A DNA stretch of 64,000 nt from Robertkochia sediminum (GTDB lineage: Bacteria; Bacteroidota; Bacteroidia; Flavobacteriales; Flavobacteriaceae): positions 132,796-196,795 of the forward strand of contig NZ_JADMKT010000080.1 of the NCBI RefSeq assembly GCF_016786255.1, written 5' to 3'. The notes beneath the pieces were generated by a model. That model was not told the DNA's origin. It made no database searches and saw only the letters and a list, made by a program, of their open reading frames with translations. The first letter of the stretch is position 1, and every line of letters starts with the position of its first letter. Below are positions 40,639 through 46,642 of the stretch, in pieces. The translations under genes and the position numbers were made by a program.

Positions 40639-42157
40639 GGGTATCGCACCTGAAAAGATCGAGGAGCAGATCGAGGTCTTTAAAAGGGGGATCCCTTTTG
40701 TGAACCTTGTGGCTGCCGCTACTATAGACAATGGAGTAGAGCGTTACTCAGGGGAAGAAAGACAAAAGTACATTGACCGTTTTCAGGAAGAACGGGATAA
40801 CCTTGACCTCCTGAAATTCGTGCCTGCTTCCGGTGCTGCCACGCGAATGTTCAAGGCGCTTTTTGAGTTCCTGAGTGGCTTTGATCCGGAGAAGGAAACG
40901 GTGAACGCCTATGTGAACCGTACCAATGATCAGATCATACGAACCTTTTTTGTAGGGGTGGAGAAATTCCCCTTCTATCGCGAGGTGATGGAAGAGATGG
41001 AAAAGCGCTATCCCGACTATATCAAACTGTCTTATGACCACCAGAAGCTTATCTTCATAAAACTGTTGCTTTCTGAAGATGCTTTTAACTTTGGAGATTT
41101 TCCTAAAGGACTGCTTCCTTTCCACCGCTATAAGCGCAGGGCTTCAACCGCTTTTGAAGAGCACCTCTATGAGGCCGCCATCTACAACAGTGCGCATGGC
41201 AAGTCGCGATTGCATTTCACCATTTCCGAAGAGCACTTACAACGGTTTAAAGAGGAGTTTAAAAAGATTAGAAGTGAGGTCGAAGAGAAGACAGGGGTTA
41301 CATTCGATATTTCCTTTTCTTTTCAAAAACCTTCAACCGATACCATTGCGGTTACCCTCGATGATGAACCCTTCAGACTTGAGTCAGGAGAATTGTTGTT
41401 CAGGCCCGGGGGGCACGGTGCACTTATTGAAAACCTGAACGAACAGGAAGCCGATCTGATCTTCATCAAGAACATCGATAATGTAGTAGTGTATAAATTC
41501 AAGGAAGAGATGACCGAGTACAAGCAGATGCTTGCCGGAAAACTTCTGGAATTGCGGGAACAGGCCTACGCCTATTCCAAACTGCTCGATGAGTCGGTGC
41601 CGGACGAGGCGACCATTCAGGAGATCATGACCTTCTTGTCTGAAAAACTCAATGTGCATATCAAGTCGGATGTCAATAAGTATAAAGAGATCTATCAGAT
41701 CGAGTTCTTAAAAGAACGACTTGCTGCACCGATACGGGTTTGCGGGATGGTACAGAATGAAGGAGAGCCCGGAGGAGGACCCTTCTGGATTAAGGATGAG
41801 AACGGAAATATTTCCCTACAGATCATCGAATCGGCTCAGATCGATATTAAGAACAAGTTTCAAAACAAGATCTTTAAAGAGTCTACGCACTTTAACCCCG
41901 TTGATATCGTATGCAGTGTTAAGAATTATAAAGGCGAAAAGTACGATCTTCTCGATTTCGTAGATCACAACCAGGCCTTTATCACCCATAAAACCAAGAA
42001 CGGAAATAAACTAAAAGCCCTGGAGCTTCCCGGATTGTGGAATGGGGCTATGGCCCGATGGAATACGGTATTTATTGAAGTGCCGTTGATCACCTTTAAT
42101 CCGGCCAAGACCGTGGTAGATCTTCTCAAACAACCCCACCAGGTGAGGGCGCTATAA
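40595..42157 (+). CDS. DUF4301 family protein
   Basis: The protein has 520 residues from the ATG at 40595; a TTG two codons earlier is possible but less likely. It matches DUF4301, a large cytoplasmic family of Bacteroidota with no known function. Visible features are FVPASGAATRMFKALFEF (about residues 71-88), GLLPFHRYKRRASTAFEEHLYEA, RPGGHGALIENLNEQEADLIFIKNID and RVCGMVQNEGEPGGGPFW, glycine-rich motifs reminiscent of nucleotide-sugar pyrophosphorylases. It overlaps the kinase gene by 44 nt and ends the operon. Confidence 0.8.
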   Translation: MTQLLNADLKQIKSKGIAPEKIEEQIEVFKRGIPFVNLVAAATIDNGVERYSGEERQKYIDRFQEERDNLDLLKFVPASGAATRMFKALFEFLSGFDPEKETVNAYVNRTNDQIIRTFFVGVEKFPFYREVMEEMEKRYPDYIKLSYDHQKLIFIKLLLSEDAFNFGDFPKGLLPFHRYKRRASTAFEEHLYEAAIYNSAHGKSRLHFTISEEHLQRFKEEFKKIRSEVEEKTGVTFDISFSFQKPSTDTIAVTLDDEPFRLESGELLFRPGGHGALIENLNEQEADLIFIKNIDNVVVYKFKEEMTEYKQMLAGKLLELREQAYAYSKLLDESVPDEATIQEIMTFLSEKLNVHIKSDVNKYKEIYQIEFLKERLAAPIRVCGMVQNEGEPGGGPFWIKDENGNISLQIIESAQIDIKNKFQNKIFKESTHFNPVDIVCSVKNYKGEKYDLLDFVDHNQAFITHKTKNGNKLKALELPGLWNGAMARWNTVFIEVPLITFNPAKTVVDLLKQPHQVRAL

Positions 42158-42164
42158 GTGTTCC

Positions 42165-42226
42165 CTGTGTAATGTGTACCCGTAAAGTGTGTAATTTTTA
42201 CACAGTGTATACCGCTTTTACACAGT
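42165..42226 (+). promoter_or_regulatory. Enhancer-like palindromic sites
   Basis: Half-sites are CTGTGTAA (42165), AGTGTGTAA (42186), TTACACAGT (42198) and TTACACAGT (42218). The middle pair forms a 21-bp near-perfect palindrome with a 3-bp centre. Repeats of the same orientation are 20-22 bp apart, two helical turns. They lie about 125-185 bp before the predicted start site of the sigma-54 promoter, the distance used by NtrC-type activators. The regulator encoded at 42834 is the obvious candidate. Confidence 0.55.
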
Positions 42227-42262
42227 AGCACGGTTTATGTGTTTTTTGCTATAAAAAGTCAC

Positions 42263-42298
42263 AACCCCTGTAAAATCAATGGTTTTCAGGGGTTTTTT
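42263..42298 (+). terminator. Intrinsic terminator of the DUF77-PnuC-kinase-DUF4301 operon
   Basis: AACCCCTG and CAGGGGTT pair, extended by AAAA/TTTT, and are followed by TTTTTT. Confidence 0.88.
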
Positions 42299-42324
42299 GT
42301 GTTCTGGCATGAAGCTTTTTACAA

Positions 42325-42341
42325 TTGGTACGATAGTGGCA
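42325..42341 (+). promoter_or_regulatory. Probable sigma-54 promoter of the PepSY-like gene
   Basis: TTGGTACGATAGTGGCA fits the consensus YTGGCACGRNNNTTGCW, with GG and GC separated by exactly 10 nt and two mismatches (C to T at the fifth position, T to G in the -12 box). The predicted start site is near 42352, 33 nt before the ATG. Confidence 0.6.
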
Positions 42342-42384
42342 TCTATATAAGAAACACATTCACAATAACTTAAATTAATTGATT

Positions 42385-42699
42385 ATGAAAAACCTAGTTT
42401 TAGTTTCAGCATTGGCTTTAGGAAGTTTTACTTCATTCGCAGCAACTCCGGTTATTTTTCACGATGGGATCGCAGAAGATATCTATCATGAAGTATATCA
42501 GGAAGAGTTTACCGAAGTAGCTCATGATGAGGTGCCACAGGCAGTTAAAGATGCGTTGGCCAATGATTTTCCGGGAGCTGAAATTTCTAAGGCTTATGTA
42601 AATGAGGCCAAAGAGTATAAGCTGGAGGTGACCATGGGTGAAGAAACCGCTACCCTCTATGCGAATGAGAACGGAGAATGGATTAATAAATCAGAATAA
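42385..42699 (+). CDS. Small secreted PepSY-like protein
   Basis: From the ATG at 42385 the protein has 104 residues: a signal peptide (KNLVLVSALALGSFTSFA, cleavage before ATP), an acidic spacer, and a C-terminal PepSY-like domain (VPQAVKDALANDFPGAEISKAY, then YKLEVTMGEETATLYANENGEW). PepSY-like proteins of Bacteroidota are periplasmic and may bind or inhibit other proteins. A sigma-54 promoter lies just upstream and a terminator just downstream, so it is its own transcript. It sits beside an NtrC-family regulator. Confidence 0.8.
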   Translation: MKNLVLVSALALGSFTSFAATPVIFHDGIAEDIYHEVYQEEFTEVAHDEVPQAVKDALANDFPGAEISKAYVNEAKEYKLEVTMGEETATLYANENGEWINKSE

Positions 42700-42746
42700 T
42701 AAAAAGATCACATAGTAGTATTTAGTTAGTTAGTTTGATTGATAAA

Positions 42747-42773
42747 GAGGATGGGGAAACCCATCCTTTTTTA
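42747..42773 (+). terminator. Intrinsic terminator after the PepSY-like gene
   Basis: AGGATGGG/CCCATCCT with loop AAA-like centre and TTTTTT. Confidence 0.88.
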
Positions 42774-42833
42774 TGTAATATATTTAAAAACAGTACTTTA
42801 TATGTTTATTTTTGTGTGGTAACACACACAATT

Positions 42834-44195
42834 ATGTCCAGGGTTTTGCTTATTGAAGATGATGTAAACTTTTCAAGGATGTTTCAAAAGTTTTTGGAGC
42901 GTCATGGGCATAGTGTAGACCATTGTTCCAGTGCCGAGGCTGCATATACCGTGCTTAAAAAGAATAAGTACGACCTGGTTTTCTCCGACCTTCGACTTCC
43001 GGACGATGATGGTATCCAGTTATTAAGTCATTTTAAAGCGGTCGATGAGCAGCTTCCCGTGATCCTTATGACGGGGTATGCCCAGGTGACTACTGCCGTG
43101 GAAGCCATGAAAAAGGGTGCCTTTGATTATATTTCCAAGCCCTTTAATCAGGAGGAGGTGCTGGCGGTAATGAATAATGCCTTGAAAAAGGAAGTCTTGT
43201 CAGAGTCCGTTTCAGATGCCGGGCTGCCGGCTGTGAAAACATCTGTTAATAGCCAACTTTCGGAAAAGGTCAGGGGTATAAGTAAGGCCTCTCAGAAGCT
43301 TAATGAGTACATTGCCCTGGTAGCCCCGACGAATATGTCGGTGCTTATTTCCGGTGAGAGCGGTACCGGGAAAGAAGTGGTTGCCAAAGGCATTCACGAT
43401 CAGAGCAGCCGGAAATCGGCTCCCTTTGTACCTGTAGACTGCGGAGCCATACCGCGGGAGATCGCCGGTAGTGAGTTTTTCGGGCATCTCAAAGGGTCGT
43501 TTACAGGGGCGGTAAATAATAAAAAAGGGCACTTTGAGGAAGCAAACGGAGGGACCCTCTTTCTCGATGAGGTCGGAAACCTTCCTTATGAGGTCCAGGT
43601 GCAACTACTCAGGGCACTTCAGGAGCGAAGGATCAAGCCTATAGGTAGCAGTAAGGAGATCGAGGTCGATATCAGAGTGATCTCAGCCACGAATGAAGAC
43701 CTGCAAAAGGCGGTGAGTGATGGTCGCTTTCGGGAAGATCTTTTTCACCGTCTCAATGAATTTTCCATCCAGGTACCTTCCCTTACCGATCGTAAGGAAG
43801 ACCTCATGATCTTTGCCGATCACTTTTTACAACAATCCAATGCACAGCTGGGAAGATCGGTTGTAGGCTTTTCTGATGAAGTGATCGGGATCTTTCAGGA
43901 ACATCAGTGGCCTGGAAATCTCCGGGAATTGTCTAATGTGATCAAAAGGGCGGTATTGCTATGCGGAGGTGACCTCATAGAAAAAAAGAATCTGCCCCCT
44001 GAATTTATCGAGGAGGCCCTCAAGGCCGAAGCCCAACCGGTAAGAATGAACTTTTCGAAAAAGGAGAACGAAAGGGATCTCATCCTCAACGCCCTGAAAG
44101 AGACGGGGAATAATAAATCGCATGCGGCCAAACTTCTGCATATCACCCGAAAAACCCTTTACAACAAGCTCAAGGAATATGGTATAAAGGCTTAA
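42834..44195 (+). CDS. NtrC-family sigma-54-dependent response regulator
   Basis: From the ATG at 42834 the protein has 453 residues; an upstream in-frame extension would run through the terminator and is rejected. Residues 1-120 are a receiver domain with phospho-acceptor Asp52 (LVFSDLRLPD) and KPF. The AAA+ domain has Walker A GESGTGKE (about 182), GSFTGA (the loop that touches sigma-54) and Walker B GGTLFLDEVG. The C-terminus is a Fis-type helix-turn-helix (NNKSHAAKLLHITRKTLYNKL). It activates sigma-54 promoters when phosphorylated. Its stop overlaps that of the convergent hybrid kinase gene by 4 nt. Confidence 0.96.
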   Translation: MSRVLLIEDDVNFSRMFQKFLERHGHSVDHCSSAEAAYTVLKKNKYDLVFSDLRLPDDDGIQLLSHFKAVDEQLPVILMTGYAQVTTAVEAMKKGAFDYISKPFNQEEVLAVMNNALKKEVLSESVSDAGLPAVKTSVNSQLSEKVRGISKASQKLNEYIALVAPTNMSVLISGESGTGKEVVAKGIHDQSSRKSAPFVPVDCGAIPREIAGSEFFGHLKGSFTGAVNNKKGHFEEANGGTLFLDEVGNLPYEVQVQLLRALQERRIKPIGSSKEIEVDIRVISATNEDLQKAVSDGRFREDLFHRLNEFSIQVPSLTDRKEDLMIFADHFLQQSNAQLGRSVVGFSDEVIGIFQEHQWPGNLRELSNVIKRAVLLCGGDLIEKKNLPPEFIEEALKAEAQPVRMNFSKKENERDLILNALKETGNNKSHAAKLLHITRKTLYNKLKEYGIKA

Positions 44196-46642
44196 TGAAA
44201 TGTCTCTAACGATCGTTTCAGGTCGTGGAACGCGGTTTCCAGTTGTTCGATCTGCTTCTCGAGTTCGCTTATAACTTCCGGTGGTTGGTGTTCTAAGGTG
44301 TCAAGGGCAGATACCATGTGTTTTGCATGTATTTGATGGAACATGGTGCGCATGCGGTGGGCGAGGTCCGAAATGGCTTTCCTGTCTTTCGCTTCAGCAA
44401 GGGCCTTCATTCGTATGAGATCGTCTTCTGTCGTGATCACCAGATCATCTAACAGCTTTCTTACGGCAATCTTATCGTGATCCATAAACCCCATTAGGTC
44501 GTCCAGCACAAAAAGAGCAGGGGAGGTAGTCGTTTTTTCAGTAGGTGCTGCTATGGGTGGTTTTGATTCAGCATTACCTGTTGTTTCCAGATTCCTGATC
44601 ACTTCCAGGAGGTCTGACGGATTATAGGGTTTGAAGAGAAATGCTGTAAATCCGTTCTTCAGGTATTTTTGTGCATCGAGATCCTTCCTGCCGGAAACGG
44701 CGATCACCGGTTGGTCCTTGTATCGATAAGCAGGATCTGTTCTTAACAGTTCCAGGAAGCGGAATCCGTTAATTCCGGGAAGCTGAATGTCGGTAATGAT
44801 GAGGTCGTAATCGATCTCCGGGATCTTGCTTAAAGCTTCGGTAGCACTCTTAAAGGGATGAACTCCGGCATTCGTGGTTCGAAGCCAGTCTTCGAGCATT
44901 TGTAACAGGAGGGTATCGTCGTCAATGATCACCACGATCTTACCACTCAGGTCTCCGGCTGGTTTTTGCGATACCTCAGATGGTTTGGAGGGTAATTTGC
45001 TAAATCGTGCGGGTAATTCGAGGGTGAACGAACTTCCGATACCTTCCTCAGAAGTCATTTTCAAGTCGCCCTCGAGGAGTCCGGCAAGCTTTCGGGAGAT
45101 AAAAAGGCCCAATCCGCTACCTCCGAATTTCTTTTCGTGGCCGGCTTCGGCCTGTATAAATTCCCTGAAGATATCGGCTTGTTTTTCTTTCGGGATCCCT
45201 ATACCGGAATCTTGTACTCCTATGGTTACCAGGTCGGATGCTGCGTCGTGGTTGAGCGAAAGCGTTATCGTTCCGGATTCGGTGAATTTATACGCGTTTC
45301 CTATAAGATTATTGAGGATCTGCCTTACCCGGTGTGGATCGCTGATGAGCTTTCCGGGAAGCTTTTCAGGGAAGTCATAAGTAAGGGTAATGGGTTTGTT
45401 GCTGTAAATGGTGCGCACACTCTCGGCGGTCTCTTTGATGAGCTTGGGCAGCTGAAAGGGAACAGGGTCGATGGTAACCTTTCCCGCCTCTAGCTTGGTG
45501 TAATCCAAAAGGTCGTCTACCAATTTGGTAACGTAGTTCGAAGCGGTACGTATTCTGCCGGCGTAATAGGCCTCCTTCTGGGTCTGGGTATTGCCGGCCA
45601 GCAGTTCGGTGTATCCGAGTATGGTATTTAAAGGGGTGCGCAGATCATGACTTACCATAGAGATCAACTGTTCCCGGCCTTTCAGAAGGGTTTGGGTGTA
45701 CTCATTGGCCTCCTCGAGCTGCTCCCTGTACCTTTGACTCTGCAGGAAATCGTTGAGGATCACCAGGGAAAAAAGGATCGCAAGCACCACCCCGATAACG
45801 GCTGCCCAGCTGAGCACATTAATACTTCGGTTCAGGATGCGTTTGCGTTCGGCATTGGTTTCCCGGGCATTCTCAAGAAGTTCTTTCTCGAGTACAGACA
45901 GTATCTGCCGTAACTGCTGAGAGGTATTCAGATCGTTCTGCAAGAGGGTGTTTTCCTTAATAGCGACCGATAACCTTTGTCGGGCCGTCTCTTTCTGGAT
46001 CTGTTCCAGCATGGCTCTTGAGGCGATCACCAGGGAATCCAGGGTGCGCTCATCAACAGTATTGGTAGAGTCACGGGGAATGTAGTTGTTCAGGATGTTG
46101 ATCTGTTCCTGGAGCAGGTCCCGCCTCCGGGTGCCCAGTGCATCGGGGTTTGCAACAAAATCTTCGAGAGAAAGGCGTCCCAGGGTTTCTTCGATGTTCG
46201 AAAATTTTTCAATAGCCCGGTCCAATGCAATTTCAGAGGCATTGTTATTGCGTATCTGCCGCAGTTCGCGTATGTTGGTCACTTTTTGTTCCAGCAGGAT
46301 GCCTATACTGTCCAGAAGAGCCTGCTGATTGGCATTGGTCGTGATCGTGCGCAGGGAATCCAGGGTGATGCGTATGGAATCGGTTTTTTGCAGGTAGGCC
46401 CGGTAAGTACTTTCCTTACTGGATTGAATGGCTGAACGGGCAAAACTCTCACTCTCGTACATCTGGGTGAGTAGCCTGCCAATGCCAAAGACCTTATTGT
46501 TTTCCTGGGTATTGTTCTCCTGTGCACGTGTAAACGAATTGAGCTCGGCATAGATGATCCACCCGGCAACAATGGCCAGAAGGAGCAGCACCAGGTAACT
46601 GATGAGTACTTTTGCCGTGATGACTTTTTTTAACCTGGCCAT
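44192..46642 (-). CDS. Hybrid sensor histidine kinase with receiver and Hpt domains
   Basis: The 816-residue protein has membrane helices at about 10-32 and 276-298 flanking a helical extracytoplasmic sensor region. The HisKA domain has His332 (MVSHDLRTPLNT), followed by a HATPase domain (QILNNLIGNA, GVQDSGIGIP, GGSGLGLFIS). The receiver domain has Asp618 (IITDIQLPG). The C-terminal Hpt domain has His762 (SDLAHRMRTMFHQIHA). This allows an internal His-Asp-His relay, with the NtrC-type regulator encoded convergently as the likely final receiver. The signal sensed is unknown. Confidence 0.94.
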   Translation of the reverse strand: MARLKKVITAKVLISYLVLLLLAIVAGWIIYAELNSFTRAQENNTQENNKVFGIGRLLTQMYESESFARSAIQSSKESTYRAYLQKTDSIRITLDSLRTITTNANQQALLDSIGILLEQKVTNIRELRQIRNNNASEIALDRAIEKFSNIEETLGRLSLEDFVANPDALGTRRRDLLQEQINILNNYIPRDSTNTVDERTLDSLVIASRAMLEQIQKETARQRLSVAIKENTLLQNDLNTSQQLRQILSVLEKELLENARETNAERKRILNRSINVLSWAAVIGVVLAILFSLVILNDFLQSQRYREQLEEANEYTQTLLKGREQLISMVSHDLRTPLNTILGYTELLAGNTQTQKEAYYAGRIRTASNYVTKLVDDLLDYTKLEAGKVTIDPVPFQLPKLIKETAESVRTIYSNKPITLTYDFPEKLPGKLISDPHRVRQILNNLIGNAYKFTESGTITLSLNHDAASDLVTIGVQDSGIGIPKEKQADIFREFIQAEAGHEKKFGGSGLGLFISRKLAGLLEGDLKMTSEEGIGSSFTLELPARFSKLPSKPSEVSQKPAGDLSGKIVVIIDDDTLLLQMLEDWLRTTNAGVHPFKSATEALSKIPEIDYDLIITDIQLPGINGFRFLELLRTDPAYRYKDQPVIAVSGRKDLDAQKYLKNGFTAFLFKPYNPSDLLEVIRNLETTGNAESKPPIAAPTEKTTTSPALFVLDDLMGFMDHDKIAVRKLLDDLVITTEDDLIRMKALAEAKDRKAISDLAHRMRTMFHQIHAKHMVSALDTLEHQPPEVISELEKQIEQLETAFHDLKRSLETFH

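Follow-up and report, generated by a model that had tools for sequence, protein, structure and literature searches.

The window, i.e., the whole 64-kb stretch of DNA analyzed here (positions 132796-196795 of its contig), comes from the 3.53-Mb genome of a Robertkochia (Flavobacteriaceae). Past the stop of a DUF4301 gene at 42157, it contains a predicted enhancer, a sigma-54 promoter and the plus-strand genes of a small, putatively exported PepSY-like (PF11396-related) protein of 104 aa (42385-42699) and of an NtrC-type response regulator of 453 aa (42834-44195); these are followed by the convergent, minus-strand gene of a hybrid histidine kinase of 816 aa (44192-46642). The kinase, a terminator-like hairpin between the enhancer and the promoter, and the 3′UTR of the PepSY-like gene had been missed by the preliminary description of the locus. 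The contig also has an rpoN-type match at 129046-129519, approximately 3.3 kb ahead of the window start, and its product contains the RpoN box ARRTVAKYR. The sigma-54 activator domain has eight matching places in the genome, three of them strong (E < 1e-60), and one of these three is at this locus. In the literature, neither a transcript start, a mutant or a footprint for this locus nor any other experiment on it was found, the circuit is described in no title or abstract start among the matches listed, and nothing was found on PepSY-like together with Zobellia.

The regulator combines a REC domain, a sigma-54 AAA+ domain with a GSFTGA contact loop (GAFTGA-type, at about 43494-43511) and a Fis HTH, which bears out its earlier assignment to the NtrC family; its residues D9, D10, D52, T80 and K102 are invariant in 15 aligned sequences. 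An imperfect palindrome, TGTGTGGTAACACACA, lies at 42813-42828, directly ahead of the regulator start codon, and is not kept in two R. marina genomes. Another REC-AAA+ sigma-54 activator, with a frame of 387-390 aa, is found in the genus (L001 1258-2421, minus strand, and L014-L018); its domain match stops before the Fis HTH in five of five genomes of the genus. The kinase has HisKA, HATPase and REC domains and a weak Hpt match, preceded by an N-terminal region of 320 residues that is predicted to be all-helical (mean pLDDT of 79).

The small protein had been described as PepSY-like, an assignment that is weak on the window protein alone and is strengthened by its family, its profile and its predicted fold. 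Against PF11396, the window protein reached 21.1 bits (E 4e-4), and phmmer gave it no PDB match. However, PF11396 is matched at E <=0.01 by 49 of 61 aligned family members, and the family profile matches 3due/3db7. The predicted model consists of a helix (residues 52-61) and three long strands, that is, a helix followed by antiparallel strands as in BLIP-like proteins. Its best PDB match was 3u1w (E 0.007), followed by DUF2874-type structures at E ~0.07 and weaker, with no PDB match at E <=0.001. Since 21.1 bits is below the gathering score of 28.3, we call the product PepSY-like, a label on which the family, profile and predicted fold evidence agree, and do not file it as a PF11396 member. 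Its N-terminal signal-like stretch suggests that it is exported.

Relatives were collected by a contig search from which the best 80 of 559 candidates were kept. Sixty-two loci (L024-L085) were treated as orthologous, and the remaining 18 (L086-L103), with an identity of at most 51%, were left out; L010-L012 duplicate L024, L025 and L029. These loci are related by descent, so the counts given below are not independent. Within the 62 orthologous loci drawn from the best 80 of 559, the convergent hybrid kinase is present downstream in all 62 (that of L048 runs into the contig end, leaving 226 residues aligned), and a PepSY-like gene is present in 58, as a single gene in 30 and as two to five genes in 28. 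No PepSY-like gene is present in L028, L038, L040 and L057, where the highest dyad scores are 10, 12, 12 and 10 of 14, respectively.

The promoter of the PepSY-like gene, TGGTACGATAGTGGCA, is located on the plus strand at 42326-42341. As previously described, it is a -24/-12 element (TGGTACG-ATAG-TGGCA) with GG at 42327-42328, GC at 42339-42340, 10 bases between them and two mismatches to the sigma-54 consensus, TGGCACG-N4-TTGCW; transcription would start at approximately 42352. Both rpoN and an activator gene are present, and the promoter presumably depends on their products. These 16 bp are identical in the window and two R. marina genomes, in an alignment whose flanks diverge. Considering the 103 of 106 PepSY-like genes whose upstream regions were long enough and N-free, a TGGYAY-like -24/-12 element was called in 93 at a lenient score cut-off, set close to the 95th percentile of shuffles; at the 99th percentile, 91 remain. 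This test is partly circular, since the model was applied to the sequences that had trained it, and in L025 the site aligned to the window was chosen by hand over the best site of the model. The ten genes with no called promoter comprise six tandem Zobellia copies right behind a sibling (L041, L045, L046, L049), L045_2880, whose start is doubtful, and the distant homologues L074_5431, L075_10573 and L083_10400. Sigma-70-type promoters were rejected as candidates, with four matches on both strands of 42100-42900 vs 2.6 expected.

The -12 element varies in its first base. Across the 93 promoters, position -13 is T in 65, G in 13, C in 12 and A in 3, and position -12 is C in 84 and T in 9. The exact GC is found in only 6 of the 93 (the window, two R. 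marina, and Galbibacter/Joostella); TC occupies these positions in 65, including L029 and L013, which belong to the same genus as the window. In groES upstream regions, by contrast, all 30 sequences retrieved (out of 32 matches in 31 genomes) carry G at position -13, although the two genome sets are unmatched, with Robertkochia in both, so that promoter classes and not paired genomes are compared. The groES gene is among the sigma-54-controlled genes of the Flavobacterium psychrophilum map (PMC9723704). The words TGTCAG/CTGACA recur, by eye, ahead of the groES sigma-54 promoter (L119-L148) and may represent the operator of another activator.

The predicted enhancer (UAS, 42165-42225) is made of four half-sites with a perfect dyad in the middle. 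Two of them are on the plus strand, CTGTGTAA (42165-42172) and GTGTGTAA (42187-42194), and two on the minus strand, where TTACACAG occurs at 42198-42205 and 42218-42225; half-sites on the same strand are spaced 22 and 20 bp. The four half-sites and the 20-22 bp spacings had been recognized before; the 21-bp palindrome proposed with them is perfect over 17 bp and reaches 21 bp with one mismatched pair. The 17-bp dyad, TGTGTAATTTTTACACA (7+3+7, 42188-42204), is centered 131 bp before the GG of the -24 element. Counting both strands, the 64-kb window has five copies of TGTGTAA where 6.1 are expected; four of the five fall inside 42166-42224, i.e., within 59 bp, a clustering that is beyond chance.

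In the 3.53-Mb genome, the exact 17-bp palindrome occurs once, at this locus, and no copy with one mismatch exists anywhere. When two mismatches were allowed, 12 further genomic places were obtained vs 6 for a reversed control pattern; three of the 12 are in one stretch of contig C68 with no PepSY-like gene by eye, and these three were taken as chance. The genomes of 15 relatives contain the exact palindrome at 10 places in nine genomes (none for the control pattern), and it is absent from the other six genomes. Nine of these ten sites precede PepSY-like genes, an arrangement that the preliminary description had suggested looking for; the remaining one (L160) precedes the ORF-less gene of L036. 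Nine of the ten lie inside the fetched loci, and the tenth is located ~0.9 kb outside L042, also before a PepSY-like gene. The exact palindrome, as distinct from degenerate sites, is highly specific to this locus.

With a score of at least 11 of 14, a dyad was identified upstream of 80 of the 93 promoter-bearing PepSY-like genes (~1.6 expected from shuffles), and no dyad of this score was found for the other 13. According to the preliminary description, it would speak against the circuit if relatives with both genes had lost the -24/-12 element as well as the palindromes; this was tested and is not what the relatives show (promoter in 93/103; dyad in 80/93). The 62 loci contain 34 sites scoring at least 13, of which 29 are located at most 320 nt ahead of a called PepSY-like gene. 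Four of the other five are in Sinomicrobium loci that have lost the ORF; the fifth, in L059, precedes a start with the signal-like sequence of the family that was absent from the gene list used. The alignment with the two R. marina genomes shows the core dyad retained with few changes, and dyad-like sites are also retained in L029 and L013. Besides the dyad itself, half-sites of the form TAYMCA recur 22-24 and 32-34 bp downstream of its center.

Between the enhancer and the promoter, a terminator-like hairpin (CCCCTG..CAGGGG followed by a T-run) was read by eye on the plus strand at 42265-42298; its loop exceeds the limit of the automated scan, which did not return it. The hairpin could block read-through from the DUF4301 gene ahead of the sigma-54 promoter. 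Similar spacer hairpins are found in R. marina. As a general spacer feature, the hairpin was discarded, with a mean fold z of -0.78 and 19% of spacers below -2; given this weak fold signal, a sequence motif describes the relatives better than a hairpin. A motif search from random starts on the spacers returned a near reverse complement of the IHF consensus, WATCAANNNNTTR. This consensus, strong in relatives, is exact in 31 of 88 spacers (1.6 expected) and present with one mismatch in 44 (20.9 expected); the term IHF consensus occurs in PMC5963220 and PMC8942017. The element is weak or absent in loci of the Robertkochia genus, and the window has, enclosed by the hairpin, a weak IHF-like site, AATCAATGGTTTT (42274-42286), with one mismatch and a score of 5.6. 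Two HU/IHF-family proteins are encoded in the genome, one HU-leaning and one IHF-leaning, both below the NCBIfam IHF and HU cut-offs.

The distances between these elements fall into bands. For the 75 sites whose dyad scores 11 or more and whose spacer score is >5.5, the IHF-like element is located 34-36 (23 sites), 44-47 (50 sites), 57 (one site, the window) or 66 bp (one site) from the GG, and the enhancer dyad 61-62 (3 sites), 68-74 (60 sites) or 82-83 bp (12 sites) from the IHF-like element. The dyad to GG distances (n=80) are grouped at 97, 102-108, 115-118 and 127-131 bp, the window being at 131. These 10-11 bp steps fit helical phasing, with shared ancestry limiting the number of independent events.

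Downstream of the PepSY-like gene, a 3′UTR stretch, AGTTAGTTAGTTTGATT (42724-42740, plus strand), stands out as a candidate RNA element. It precedes an intrinsic terminator-like sequence (GGATGGG-GAAA-CCCATCC-T run, 42749-42773, plus strand), which was identified by eye and fold and is not in the automated scan. All 17 nt of the stretch recur in two R. marina genomes, and the CDS identities in this class are 0.81-0.87; three genes from three genomes are too few to weigh. In relatives, 3′UTRs were grouped into classes by an exact shared motif (16 nt for class A), a choice that inflates identity. Class A has 19 genes when its diverged member, L069, is counted; over 39 nt, its 18 other genes have a mean identity of 0.965 vs 0.778 at the CDS end, where third positions reach 0.511. 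Outside the picking motif, the identity is 0.94 vs 0.793 for the CDS in class A, 0.909 vs 0.797 in class C (4 genes) and 0.917 vs 0.86 in class Z (4 genes); class B (10 genes), with 0.761 vs 0.733, shows no real excess. A 3′UTR core pattern, drawn from the same sequences, is present in 43 of 106 3′UTRs vs 0.24 expected from shuffling; elsewhere, it has 15 copies on both strands of 793 kb, and it is absent from 26 of the 62 loci. A search of 11 genomes for the class A core gave a single exact copy in each of 8, plus two other places at 2-3 mismatches. In six loci, Rfam gave no gathering-level match, and the matches in the window stretch were all sub-threshold.

The class A sequence TTATTTGTTTTG is complementary, over 10-13 nt, to the leaders of distal siblings in 12 of 17 leaders (16 loci) at a shuffle p <=0.05, in a test done after an earlier complementarity result had pointed to distal leaders. 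The corresponding counts are 1 of 18 for own leaders and 0 of 11 for proximal leaders. By eye, one A-U pair of the leader match is turned into U-A in L060, a compensatory change. No complementarity excess was found in classes B, C and Z, and the mean z for the regulator and kinase starts is just -0.72 and 0.39, respectively. Trans targets of the class A core were also sought in eight genomes, where 54 non-self matches with at most two mismatches vs 41 for the control gave no clear excess. The Zobellia proximal 3′UTR carries CCGAACCAATTTT (L041, L043, L045 and L049; one base off in L046), which by eye can pair with the class A core if G-U pairs and a bulge are allowed (z of -2.1 in L049), a possible RNA sponge.

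In four Sinomicrobium loci, the PepSY ORF is cut to a short C-terminal remnant, and the enhancer, the promoter and the RNA end are kept (ends at L032 5755-5806, L033 5695-5745, L036 5512-5563 and L037 5759-5810). This 52-nt end has an identity of 0.965 vs 0.721 for intact PepSY CDS of the same genomes; 27 of its 52 nt are search motifs, and the intervening 24-25 nt vary little. A regulatory RNA from the 3′UTR is plausible on such sequence constraint, and it is possible that these stretches act at the DNA level.

Taken as a whole, the locus looks like a self-contained on-switch (kinase, activator, enhancer and promoter) for one small envelope protein, a switch that many relatives keep. The preliminary description had proposed a complete local circuit; its promoter, enhancer and activator stand, and completeness requires the hybrid kinase. 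We consider it very probable that the locus encodes a dedicated sigma-54 phosphorelay, probably with a single target locus. Judging from domains and conserved neighborhood, the hybrid kinase would sense an envelope signal and relay phosphate to the NtrC-type regulator by way of its own REC and Hpt domains. The regulator would bind the TGTGTAA-N3-TTACACA dyad and the flanking half-sites, as the specificity and co-occurrence of the sites suggest. DNA looping, probably helped in most relatives by an IHF/HU-type bend, would then bring it to the RpoN polymerase at the -24/-12 element, which would open transcription of the PepSY-like gene. On the basis of its fold family, the protein is probably a periplasmic binder or inhibitor that would buffer the envelope or feed back on the kinase. 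In part of the family, the constrained 3′UTR at the end of the message may provide a second, RNA-level output. An extended form of this model, in which the PepSY array is the whole regulon, the outputs are double (the PepSY-like protein and a 3′UTR RNA pairing with the sibling leader) and the ORF-less Sinomicrobium gene, still under this enhancer, encodes nothing but a regulatory RNA, is one that we hold tentatively, leaning slightly against it.

The readings that involve an RNA were rated lower because the excess of class B vanished outside the picking motif. One of them departs further from the dedicated phosphorelay: in some relatives, a 3′UTR-derived regulatory RNA that cross-talks between PepSY paralogs would be the more constrained product and the protein would be secondary. 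The class A 3′UTR, more conserved than its CDS both over the 39 nt and outside the motif, the Sinomicrobium remnants with their conserved end, and the 12 of 17 distal leaders matched beyond shuffles all argue for this reading. However, the leader test was post hoc, the complementarity may trace to one ancestral event and shows no excess in classes B, C and Z, the stretches vary between clades, and neither a clear trans target nor an Rfam match came to light in the searches above; we regard this alternative as possible but rather doubtful.

The G missing at -13 in 80 of the 93 promoters could suggest that the conserved -24-like box is used by another sigma factor (sigma-A or ECF). Against this, GG at -24 is present in 93 of 93 (the model favors GG) with a fixed spacing, T at -15 has a frequency of 0.99, C is kept at -12 in 84, and the box is accompanied by a distal enhancer and the gene of a sigma-54 activator. 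Moreover, no fittingly placed box of the sigma-A consensus, TAnnTTTG (PMC9723704), was seen by eye. A wrong sigma-54 reading is very unlikely. Slimmer still is the chance that the palindromes are no enhancer and instead control the DUF4301 gene upstream or form part of its terminator, as their position just past the DUF4301 stop and ahead of the terminator-like hairpin might suggest. Against this, there are two to five PepSY-like genes in 28 of 58 loci, and most promoter-bearing genes within these arrays, with no DUF4301 gene directly ahead, come with a dyad of their own, placed at a set distance from the promoter, with the caveat that 10 of the 103 genes have no called promoter.

With this dedicated phosphorelay, the Bacteroidota would gain a compact model of enhancer looping, in which one activator appears to serve one locus and the spacing varies naturally in helical steps. 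The -13 G that most relatives lack and groES keeps raises the question of how sigma-54 reads the -12 element. If the RNA reading is true, the conversion of an mRNA into a regulatory RNA would be traceable across sister genera.

Sigma-54 regulons had been called little explored in this group, which is only partly right, since the regulon of F. psychrophilum SM4, from the same family as the window host, has been mapped, likewise with -24/-12 promoters, by 5′-end sequencing, with three activators and a putative regulatory RNA, Rfp36, under a sigma-54 promoter (PMC9723704). The selection in its Table 2A includes chaperones, genes for gliding and exported proteins that are unknown, with no entry named PepSY-like, and the word PepSY appears zero times in the main text; unlike for the present locus, no enhancer is described in the parts of that account covered here (PMC9723704). 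BVU2987, a DUF2874/PepSY-like protein, is periplasmic, and such proteins have been suggested to be inhibitors (PMC2954215). It differs from the one-domain window protein in its tandem repeat, and sigma-54 control is unmentioned for it in the portion of that article consulted (PMC2954215). By profile and predicted fold, the window protein is related to BVU2987.

GlnZ is the RNA of the 3′UTR of glnA, a gene driven by NtrC and sigma-54, and CpxQ derives from cpxP, which encodes a periplasmic envelope protein. That the glnA 3′UTR yields an RNA has been documented (PMC9731577). The present locus is similar in having a regulated mRNA with a 3′UTR RNA, here a candidate only. Unlike GlnZ and CpxQ, this candidate, proposed from sequence, has a sibling gene of the same array as its candidate target. 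In the ZraP-ZraSR system of E. coli, an NtrC-type regulator and a kinase are encoded beside the gene of a small periplasmic protein, which has a sigma-54 promoter with upstream sites. The same arrangement is found here, the small protein being putatively periplasmic. Against the ZraR model, our regulator scored 383.7 bits (cut-off of 760), its best model being AtoC (412.7 bits, cut-off of 714); we do not call it a ZraR orthologue because its ZraR score is below the cut-off. In contrast to ZraP-ZraSR, the kinase here is a convergent hybrid phosphorelay kinase, the product is PepSY/BLIP-like and not ZraP, the operator is different, and the spacer in relatives carries the IHF consensus.
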